Source: Kribbella rubisoli | GTDB lineage: Bacteria > Actinomycetota > Actinomycetes > Propionibacteriales > Kribbellaceae | DNA length: 64,000 nt | Reading direction: 5' to 3' | NCBI RefSeq assembly: GCF_004217145.1 | Contig: NZ_SHKR01000014.1 | Coordinates: forward strand, 682,001-746,000 | Position numbers and translations under genes: made by a program | Notes under the pieces: generated by a model | The model's database searches: none | What the model was told of the DNA's origin: nothing | The model's input: the letters and a program-made list of their open reading frames with translations, nothing else | Shown here: positions 7,695 through 57,195 of the stretch, piece by piece | Numbering within the stretch: position 1 is the first letter of the stretch | Layout of the letters: every line of letters begins with the position of its first letter

Positions 7695-8998
7695 GAGGAC
7701 TGCGGACCGGGTCGCTGCGCGTTCGGGTGACGGCGACGGCGATCGCCGTACTGCTGGTCGTGCTGCCGATCACCGGGCTGACGGTGAAGGCCGTGTTCGA
7801 CGCGCAGGCCGAGCGCAGCCTCGACTCGCTGCTCACCGGTCGCGCGCAGCTCGCTCAGCAACTCGCCCGGCAGAACGTTGCTCCAGGCAACTTGGTACGG
7901 CGGGTCGATGCCGACGGCGTGCGGGTCACGCTGATCCTGCGGAACGGGCGACAGCTGGGCGCCCCGCCGATCGACGCCGGCGGGACCGTGCGGCAGGTGA
8001 AGGCGACGCTGCAGGCCGGCCAGCAGACGAAGGGCGCGACGCTGATGCTGTCCGCGGACACCAGCCTGCTCGCCGACGCGAGCGCCCGACTTCGAAGGGT
8101 GCTGTTGATCTCCGGCGCGTTGGCGATCATCATCACCGCGCTGGCGCTGGTGATCGGGATGCGGTTCGCACTGGCGCCGCTCGATGCGATGACCGGTTTG
8201 GCGCGTTCGATTGCAGCCGGTCGGCGCGGCGGGCGGTTGCAGCCGGAGCGCGCGGACACGGAGCTCGGTCGTACGGCGGCCGCCTTCGACGAGATGCTCG
8301 ATGCGCTCGAGGGCGCCGAGGGCGCTGCACGACGTTCGGAGGACCGGATGCGTGAGTTCGTCGCCGACGCAGCGCACGAACTGCGTACCCCGATCGCCGG
8401 TCTGCAGACGGCCGCGGAAACGCTGATCCAGTTGGGCCCGCGGGCGGCGGCGAACCAGCGCGGTCAGCTCGAACTCCTTCTGGTGCGGGAATCTCGCCGC
8501 GCCGGCACGCTGGTCTCCGACTTGCTCGAGCTGAGCCGGATCGATGCCGGCCTGCAACTGCACCTCACACAGGTCGACCTGCACCACCTCGCCGAGTCGC
8601 AGGCCGCTCGCCTCCGGCTGGTCGCGCCCGATCTGGAGGTCGAGGTCGACGGCTCGGCCATCGTCTCCGCCGACCCGGAGCGGTTGGCCCAGGTCCTCGC
8701 CAACCTCGTCGACAACGCCCGGCAGGCGGGCGCCCGGACGATCCGCCTCACCGTCGCCGCGTCCGGCGTACTGGTCGAGGACGACGGTCCCGGAGTACCG
8801 CCGGAAGCCCGCGAGCGGATCTTCGAGCGCCTCGTCCACGGCCCGCACAGCAAAGGCGCCGGCCTCGGCCTGGCCATCGCCCGCGGCGTGGCCCGGGCCC
8901 ACGGCGGCGACCTGACCGTCGCCGACCGCCCCGACGGCAAACCAGGCGCCGCCTTCCACCTCCACCTCCCCACCAGCCCGCCCAACCCGGACGTCTGA
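7691..8998 (+). CDS. sensor histidine kinase
   Basis: 435 residues. Two transmembrane segments (about 14-33 and 137-158) flank an extracytoplasmic sensor region of about 100 residues; a HAMP-like linker follows. The H-box is FVADAAHELRTPIAGL, N-box NLVDNARQAG, G1 EDDGPGVP and G2 GAGLGLAIARG. It partners the response regulator encoded immediately upstream. The last eight codons (SPPNPDV and stop) form part of a 38-bp perfect inverted repeat that continues past the stop, so the extreme C-terminus may derive from an inserted or duplicated sequence. Confidence 0.93.
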   Translation: MRGLRTGSLRVRVTATAIAVLLVVLPITGLTVKAVFDAQAERSLDSLLTGRAQLAQQLARQNVAPGNLVRRVDADGVRVTLILRNGRQLGAPPIDAGGTVRQVKATLQAGQQTKGATLMLSADTSLLADASARLRRVLLISGALAIIITALALVIGMRFALAPLDAMTGLARSIAAGRRGGRLQPERADTELGRTAAAFDEMLDALEGAEGAARRSEDRMREFVADAAHELRTPIAGLQTAAETLIQLGPRAAANQRGQLELLLVRESRRAGTLVSDLLELSRIDAGLQLHLTQVDLHHLAESQAARLRLVAPDLEVEVDGSAIVSADPERLAQVLANLVDNARQAGARTIRLTVAASGVLVEDDGPGVPPEARERIFERLVHGPHSKGAGLGLAIARGVARAHGGDLTVADRPDGKPGAAFHLHLPTSPPNPDV

Positions 8999-9098
8999 GG
9001 GGTCAACCCCTCAGGTGGTCAGTTCGGCAGCCAGATTCTCGGAGGCCAACCGACCATCTCAGGGGTTGACCCCTCAGACGTCCGGGTTGGGCGGGCTG
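8974..9098. repeat. 38-bp perfect inverted repeat between convergent genes (foldback element or bidirectional terminator)
   Basis: Arms 8974-9011 and 9061-9098 are perfect reverse complements over 38 bases, separated by 49 bases. With one single-base bulge the pairing continues outward by about five more bases. The left arm contains the final 25 bases of the kinase gene. Each arm also holds its own small hairpin (TGAGGGG-TCAA-CCCCTCA at 8996-9013 and its counterpart near 9060-9075). It lies between the kinase (plus, ends 8998) and the DUF1501 gene (minus, ends 9113), so it could end transcription from both sides. Confidence 0.9.
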
Positions 9099-9112
9099 AG
9101 TGGGCGCAAGGG

Positions 9113-10363
9113 TCAGGCGCGGAGGAGCCCGTCGATGGTGGTGGTGTGGTTGGCGAGGATCTTGCCTGGGTCTTCGCCGAGGACGTGCTGCAGCATCGTG
9201 GCGTAGACGTCGCGGAAGTCTGTGCCGGCTTTGAGATCGCCATTGGAGAGGTCGGTCAGGCTGGGCTGGTTGCCGTAGAAGCCGCCGGCGACCTTCTCGC
9301 CGAGGACGAAGACCGGGCCGGCGGTGCCGTGGTCGGTGCCGTCGCTGCCGTTGGCCTGGACCCGGCGGCCGAATTCGGAGTACACCAGCACGACCGCGTT
9401 CTTCCCGCGATCCGTCTTCTGCAGCCGCTGGACGAACGGCGTCAGCGCACCGTCGAGTTCGGTCAGCAGTCGCTGCTGTGTGCCGCGCTCATCCGCGTGC
9501 GTGTCGAAGCCGCCGAGCGAAGCGGAGTACGCCCGCGTCGGCACGCCGGCCTCGATCAGGCCGGCGATCAGTTCGAGCTGCGCACCGAGCTGCGACGTAC
9601 CGCCCGCGGATGCGCCCTTGGTGCGCTCCTCGTCGTCATCGTCCTCCTGGTCGTGCCCGCTCTTGACCGCCTTGCCCAGCACCTGCGTCGCGTTCTGCAG
9701 GTCCAGCACGGACTTGGCCGCCCGCGCCTGCCAGTGGCCCTCACCCGGGCTCGGCTTGCCCAATGCGGCGTACGCCGTACCTAATGCGCCGCCTGGCAAG
9801 GAGAGCCCGCGCAACGGGAGGGAGGCAGCGGCCGTGGTTTCGCCGGCCAGGAGTGGCGGCAGGGTCGGCTCGACGGAGACCGCACGCAGCGGGTCGCTGC
9901 CGGTGGCGTCGAGCCAGCGGCCGAGCCAGCCGGTCGGGATCGGCGACTTGGGCGATGCCGTCTGCCAGATCGCCATCGACCGGAAGTGGCTGCGATCCGG
10001 GTCCGGGTATCCGACGCCGCGTACGATCGCGAGCCGCTTGTCGTCCCACAGACCCTTGAGGCCCTTCATCCCCGGGTTCAACCCGAGGCCGTCGCCGAGG
10101 TCGAGCACCTCGTTCGGCTGGTAGGCCAGATCCGGACGCGCCTTCTGGTACGCCGGGTCCGCGGCCGGCACGACCGTGTTCAGCCCGTCGTTCCCGCCGT
10201 ACAAGGTGATGACGACGAGGACCGACTGGTCGCTCGGCAACGGATCGTCGACGGCCGCGGCCATCAGGTCGGACCAGTTCACCTGGGTCGCCCCGGCCGC
10301 CAAGGCACCGGCTGCCGTGACGCCGCTGAGCGTCAGGAATCGCCTTCTCGTCAGGTTGTCCAC
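9113..10363 (-). CDS. DUF1501 family Tat-exported protein
   Basis: 416 residues. The N-terminus has a twin-arginine signal (TRRRFLTLSGVTAAGALAAGA). The mature protein has VLVVITLYGGNDGLNTVVP and RSHFRSMAIWQT, and a C-terminal VVLVYSEFGRRVQANGSDGTDHGTAGPVFVLG, all typical of DUF1501 proteins, which share the alkaline phosphatase/sulfatase fold. An acidic low-complexity loop (DQEDDDDEERTKG) sits near residue 235. GTG start at 10363, 9 bases after the DUF1800 stop. DUF1501 and DUF1800 genes are commonly adjacent; their joint role, perhaps at the cell surface, is unknown. Confidence 0.9.
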   Translation of the reverse strand: MDNLTRRRFLTLSGVTAAGALAAGATQVNWSDLMAAAVDDPLPSDQSVLVVITLYGGNDGLNTVVPAADPAYQKARPDLAYQPNEVLDLGDGLGLNPGMKGLKGLWDDKRLAIVRGVGYPDPDRSHFRSMAIWQTASPKSPIPTGWLGRWLDATGSDPLRAVSVEPTLPPLLAGETTAAASLPLRGLSLPGGALGTAYAALGKPSPGEGHWQARAAKSVLDLQNATQVLGKAVKSGHDQEDDDDEERTKGASAGGTSQLGAQLELIAGLIEAGVPTRAYSASLGGFDTHADERGTQQRLLTELDGALTPFVQRLQKTDRGKNAVVLVYSEFGRRVQANGSDGTDHGTAGPVFVLGEKVAGGFYGNQPSLTDLSNGDLKAGTDFRDVYATMLQHVLGEDPGKILANHTTTIDGLLRA

Positions 10364-41994: not shown

Positions 41995-42093
41995 GCAAGC
42001 TCGACAGGACGTATACGTCCACCACGCTCGCCCGCACGCCTAGGCCCAGCCTCGATAGCGATGCAGTGGATATATACGTCCTGTCGAGCTTGC
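41995..42093. repeat. about 100-bp inverted-repeat element, copy 2
   Basis: Arms 41995-42022 and 42066-42093 are inverted repeats matching at 26 of 28 bases (GCAAGCTCGACAGGACGTAT at the outer end). The 43-base centre has no clear match in copy 1 (29245-29340), whose total length is nearly the same (96 against 99 bases). It sits in the gap between convergent genes, 22 bases after a stop codon. Probably a REP- or MITE-like element or terminator. Confidence 0.85.
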
Positions 42094-57034: not shown

Positions 57035-57195
57035 GGCATGTCTGGTGATCCAGCGCCGTAGCGAGGAGGTGCTCGGCGCGGTGCATCGGCGCGCGGGGGC
57101 GAAGGGGTCGATGCGGAGCATCGTTCCCTTCGCACCCGTGCGGCGAGGTGCCGTGCCGAGTGCCCCGCAGTAGGCGATGGATCACCAGACATGCC
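57035..57195. mobile_element. 161-bp foldback MITE-like element
   Basis: Perfect 18-bp terminal inverted repeats, GGCATGTCTGGTGATCCA (57035-57052) and its complement (57178-57195). The interior is itself a long imperfect palindrome, centred on GCGAAGGGG-TCGATGC/GCATCGT-TCCCTTCGC, so the whole element can fold into one hairpin. It carries no gene. Target duplications are not obvious. It lies between hemW and the MFS gene. Likely a non-autonomous element moved by a transposase elsewhere. Confidence 0.8.

Follow-up and report, generated by a model that had tools for sequence, protein, structure and literature searches.

Among the described systems closest to the repeat reported here are the REPINs that Bertels and Rainey (2011; PMC3116915) found in Pseudomonas fluorescens SBW25. 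These are extragenic and dispersed, GI doublets lying 71 bp apart, and each consists of an inverted palindromic pair with conserved ends and a variable spacer whose length is kept and whose changes are compensatory. A later account by Di Nocera et al. (2013; PMC3733652) of tagged REPs and of REP dimers describes REPINs as moved by RAYTs, and the other large class, the CGTC REPs, as having neither a known mover nor a dedicated transposase. In that account most of the palindromes follow genes, their neighbours being convergent or unidirectional, dimers form one large hairpin, and REP ends often supply the stop codon of a gene. Correia/NEMIS and ERIC repeats, mentioned there, are transcribed with neighbouring genes. 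Actinobacteria are not among the phyla that it names for tagged REPs, and the string 'actinobact' has 0 occurrences in the text.

The locus studied lies in a 64,000-nt stretch of Kribbella rubisoli DNA (hereafter the window; its genome is G000), in which a sensor histidine kinase gene runs at its 3' end into a large inverted repeat. Judged by its sequence, this repeat is characterized by dispersal, near-constant length, co-variation of its arms, a bias towards the 3' ends of genes and, in close relatives, sites that are vacant or hold something else. It is best explained, with a probability that we put at about 0.6, as a REPIN-like element without a detected mobiliser, copied between sites and kept as a putative two-way 3'-end hairpin. 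The element is called REPIN-like, and not a REPIN, because no Y1 transposase was found in G000 and the GTAG tag is absent.

Results

An inverted repeat at the 3' end of a kinase gene

The first-pass annotation had described an exact 38-base inverted repeat with arms 49 nt apart, and perfect reverse-complement arms with that spacing were indeed located at 8974–9011 and 9061–9098, enclosed in a near-palindrome of 125 nt. When mismatches are allowed, arms 8974–9035 and 9037–9098 are 87% complementary across 62 nt. The RNA fold of 8960–9112 has an energy of −130.4 kcal/mol on the plus strand and −133 on the minus strand (z about −14), matched by 0 of 200 shuffles on either strand. In an ungapped palindrome scan of the window this repeat scored 42, the runners-up 22 and 20, and the same scan of a single simulated window (first-order Markov) returned nothing of 14 or more. 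The features of the locus are collected in Table 1.

Table 1. Features at the convergent junction downstream of the kinase gene (positions in the window)
Feature	Position	Strand	Details
Kinase-end 91-nt dispersed element, family A	8991..9081	.	Covariance-model match 85.5 bits (+), 82.3 (−); 40 ungapped aligned copies
Left REP-like palindrome GGGGTCAACCCC	8999..9010	.	63 bp start-to-start from right palindrome
Right REP-like palindrome GGGGTTGACCCC	9062..9073	.	
Central co-varying stem and small loop	9015..9057	.	Alignment columns 25–67; alignment, pair counts
Locus-specific outer arm, left	8974..8990	.	Within the last codons of the kinase; flank pairing score 19.5, top of 40 loci
Locus-specific outer arm, right	9082..9098	.	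Perfect complement of 8974–8990
Sensor histidine kinase (HAMP, HisKA, HATPase_c)	7697..8998	+	Open frame, Pfam; 7697 is the open-frame start
Convergent DUF1501 protein gene	9113..10363	−	Open frame, Pfam

The left 38-nt arm covers the end of the kinase gene, as had been noted, taking in its last seven codons and the stop (8996–8998), which is supplied by the element. Of the 433 residues translated from 7697, the HATPase_c match extends to residue 426, so that the arm encodes the tail of the kinase only; C-terminal tails vary among kinase orthologues. The small hairpin seen in each arm is the GGGGTCAACCCC-type palindrome of Table 1.

A family of 91-nt elements in the genome

A genome search for further copies of the arms had been set beforehand as the test for an element. 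BLAST of the kinase-end region against its own genome gave 82 strand matches, and a covariance model gave 138 strand matches at about 70 places, a lower bound, as 150 of 4877 first-look candidates were scored. The earlier term 'foldback element' was therefore right in kind. The conserved unit of this family (family A) is 91 nt long, and 40 copies align free of gaps; these are 40 of the 41 BLAST places, a partial copy beside another copy being excluded, and three of them (L144, L146 and L149) have one decayed outer end each. Among the 71 model places listed, 55 are exactly 91 nt, the other 16 differ in length, and one overlaps another. By these comparisons the core is a dispersed repeat with near-constant length and co-varying arms.

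Paired GGGGTYRACCCC palindromes start 63 bp apart in 40/40 family A copies, in a search that admitted 60–66 bp only. The consensus palindrome, CTCAGGGG-TCAA-CCCCTGAG, has an 8-bp stem and a 4-base loop, its inner two pairs being often broken. At the kinase locus the family motif GGTT (columns 31–34) reads AGTT, with AACC at columns 58–61. Standard pairs of the long hairpin fill 80.6% of cells in the alignment; column shuffles give 76.7 ± 0.6, and slid partners no more than 47.7%. The covariation score of the arms exceeds 500 of 500 shuffles, and 25 of the 43 pairs are altered on both sides in some copy of the 40-copy alignment. Mispairs comprise 75 G–T and 73 A–C, both slightly under shuffles; given these similar counts, there is no sign of selection on RNA from one strand.

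The outermost 17 bp of each arm echo the last codons of the kinase, lie outside the family and are specific to the kinase locus. Summed over the 40 loci, locus-specific flank pairing amounts to 131.5, whereas mismatched flanks gave 65.7 ± 10.8, with 105 as the highest of 200; a score of at least 12 is reached at two loci only, the kinase locus and L131, against 0.19% of mismatched pairs. These outer pairs would be in keeping with a quasi-palindrome that template switching produced once, at this site, or with an ordinary terminator formed in place. For the whole repeat that account is scarcely credible, the 91-nt core at about 70 places refuting it there. The template switching suggested at first thus fails for the core, because the core is a dispersed repeat, and could still account for the 17 base pairs at the outer ends of the arms.

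Related families across the genus

The covariance model detected the element in 33 of 38 Kribbella genomes, some with just one or two weak matches, and outside the genus gave two weak matches in 109 other genomes sampled from the order. By BLAST, family A occurs in 18 of the 38 Kribbella genomes and a second family, B, in 15, not including G000. From 29 fetched family B copies, 28 were placed, all 91 nt long, and one was left unplaced; in family F, 8/8 units keep the 63-bp palindrome spacing. The kinase junction of other species holds, by the model, an element of family B (L012, L014, L016), C (L035) or D (L037), and elsewhere an unrelated inverted repeat, E (L010, L036), or almost no spacer (e.g. 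L038, L046–L049). Ungapped identity to family A, out of 91 positions, is 48 for the B consensus, 51 and 48 for two F copies and 62 for D, against 25–26 for palindrome-preserving shuffles (P 0.0004 for B; 0/5000 for F and D). The covariance model rewards pairing itself; this check on sequence identity covered B, D and F. Family C is 90 nt long. Since the identity of B, D and F to A exceeds that of shuffles, these families compared by sequence are a superfamily that has diverged to about half identity with its length almost unchanged.

Such constancy would also suit a protein-binding DNA site in which three dyads, set 31.5 bp or three helical turns (10.5 bp each) apart, would be bound by a multimer, such as a protein that organises the chromosome or mobilises the element, with helical phase as the reason for the kept length. 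The spacing in families A and F and the single length of the 28 placed B copies agree with this, as do Watson–Crick pairs above shuffles with G–T not favoured over A–C. However, the arms differ between families, so that one binding protein would need to read shape and not sequence; the preference for gene 3' ends described below is not predicted, and no protein was identified. A binding site as the explanation of the family is hence quite unlikely.

Other repeats were recorded in the same comparisons. Inverted repeat E (ACGGGTAGT...ACTACCCGT) fills the kinase slot of genomes G032 and G033 (L010, L036); it has no match to the element model, and among the matches listed only its own G032 copy was retrieved. 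At L294:1067–1781 (G000 C1:574866–575580), four tandem family F units are set in G-rich filler with spacings of 180, 222 and 222 nt, and growth of this array looks recent because two of its repeats are 99% alike. A second large inverted repeat of the window, at 41995–42093 between convergent open frames, has 28-nt arms with a GGACGTATACGTCC palindrome and related copies at G000 C2:728561, C3:846065 and C4:758770 and in G034 and G023; the element model found no match in this repeat family, which from its copies looks like another dispersed family. A further inverted repeat in the window has 23-nt arms, 115 nt apart (57035–57057 / 57173–57195).

Comparison of sites with relatives

Nine of 12 fetched copies from G032 lie at slots that are also filled in G000, and many insertions are therefore old. 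Across these nine slot pairs the element is free of gaps and the flanking DNA has many. With one pair added, the G032 copy was nearest to its positional counterpart in 5/10 pairs; in the other five the counterpart ranked 2, 6, 17, 27 and 39, which points to replacement or conversion. Paired changes between G000 and G032 are in excess (11 versus 2.35 ± 1.40), 9 of the 11 coming from three slots at which the G000 and G032 copies are not each other's nearest kin.

Thirteen further G000 loci were looked up in G032 and G012, eight of them also in G025, and an A copy was found only at L141, in G032. Twelve of these 13 loci are thus A-less in G032, a figure that is no rate of emptiness, the 13 having been picked among loci unmatched by the first 12 fetched G032 copies. 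The remaining sites were empty, rearranged or occupied by another hairpin, and the L004 site showed three different hairpins. Three G032 copies had no counterpart in G000; one slot (L260) has an F-like unit with the 63-bp spacing kept, for which the covariance model gave no match at E ≤ 0.1. No target-site duplication was visible at the compared sites, whose flanks are rearranged.

Search for a mobiliser

A search with PF01797 (Y1, RAYT-type), positive in 5 of 14 control genomes, gave no match in G000 and was positive in one of the 38 Kribbella genomes, G008, where the sole Y1-type transposase found lies at C7:51482–51820 (L285). The anatomy of the element, with its inverted REP pair, fixed spacing, conserved ends and compensatory spacer changes, is that of a genuine REPIN, the kind moved by a RAYT (Y1 tyrosine transposase), as PMC3116915 describes it. 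With PF01797 confined to G008 and an alignment consensus devoid of the GTAG tag, a true REPIN is very improbable here.

A MITE, an insertion sequence that has been shortened and depends on a DDE-type transposase acting in trans on its terminal inverted repeats, would account for the inverted ends and the dispersed copies, and G000 contains one ISL3 transposase gene. The end pattern AGGGGTYRACCCC gave 129 strand matches versus 0 for the reversed control. Among the matches listed, 63 of 64 places fell inside 91-nt elements, the last lying in an incomplete copy adjoining an element; therefore these ends were not seen to bound any longer element. Pfam families common to at least two of 141 flanking proteins included no transposase among the 25 listed of 158, and no target-site duplication could be seen at the compared sites with their rearranged flanks. 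A MITE is considered unlikely.

Searches for known identities gave two chance-level Rfam matches and nothing else for seven loci at E ≤ 1, and no match in phage and plasmid collections. Four IMG/VR contigs had one 17-base match each and no element by the model (one 37-nt match, E 0.6). A literature search, with most subscription journals outside its reach, returned nothing on such repeats in Kribbella.

Position at gene ends

Junctions were classified with gene calls from our own codon-usage script. Of the 40 family A copies, 22 lie between convergent genes, 14 between tandem and 4 between divergent ones, as compared with 17 convergent junctions among 130 in the background from the same stretches (binomial P about 4e-10). 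By the same gene calls, the adjoining gene ends inside the 91 nt at 5 of 40 loci, in the manner of the kinase. This location at gene ends and the stability of the hairpin make a 3'-end role a candidate, and the element probably acts as a two-way 3'-end hairpin. Several slots are empty in relatives, with the neighbouring genes nearly abutting, and the hairpin is therefore dispensable.

The element does not fit an intrinsic (U-tract) terminator: no U tract directly follows the stem, and the longest T run past the element is 3. The two-way terminator between convergent genes that the first-pass annotation had proposed would suit the location of the convergent copies. Gene ends at convergent family A elements of G000 are C-rich and G-poor (last 45 nt, C 0.42 and G 0.25; 44 ends), the comparison ends at other convergent junctions having C 0.33 and G 0.31 (34 ends). 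C-rich tails beside elements could serve for Rho loading.

Discussion

On the reading of a REPIN-like element, the unit would be copied as a whole from site to site by some activity, and copies would be partly exchanged by gene conversion or re-insertion. Elements between convergent genes may be retained because transcripts from either side would end in a very stable hairpin, limiting read-through and decay from the 3' end. At the kinase locus, the 17 additional pairs would be a later gain, either from template switching or from selection favouring a longer stem. Counted against this explanation are the 18/40 copies outside convergent junctions and the absence of a mobiliser and of a target duplication from what was found.

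A wider proposal, speculative and rather doubtful, is that Kribbella harbours mobile two-way terminators, a population with one fixed geometry (91 nt, and dyads separated by three helical turns), whose members would spread and split into families that differ in their arms, one taking another's place at convergent junctions, propagated by means other than RAYTs and classical transposases, possibly by a protein assembly that measures dyad spacing. A population of some 70 REPIN-like copies without a detectable RAYT raises the question of what copies or maintains orphan REP dimers, which is testable by strain comparison, and Kribbella, a genus with dozens of sequenced species, suits that question. 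Gene-end hairpins exchanged between species at one junction also offer a simple system for terminator turnover.

Like the MITE-type Correia/NEMIS and ERIC repeats (mentioned in PMC3733652), the Kribbella elements are short, dispersed foldback elements near genes, but no target duplication or parent insertion sequence was seen for them. Family A resembles the GTAG and CGTC REPs in its dimer hairpin and in favouring the 3' ends of genes and convergent junctions. It also starts with (A)CGTC, and its 8-bp stem and 4-base loop fall within the 8–9 bp and 4–5 bp of CGTC REPs. Identity with that class was nevertheless rejected: the CGTC of family A is mostly paired in the long hairpin (columns 2–5 with 87–90), no CCA tail follows, and families B, D and F are devoid of CGTC. 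From the SBW25 REPINs the elements differ in sequence, in having no GTAG, in far fewer copies (about 70), in the several families sharing one register, and in the missing cognate RAYT (Y1) gene, PF01797 having no match in G000. What they share with REPINs is the same inverted REP pair forming one hairpin, a spacer whose length is kept in every aligned copy, and compensatory changes, 25 of the 43 hairpin pairs being altered on both sides.
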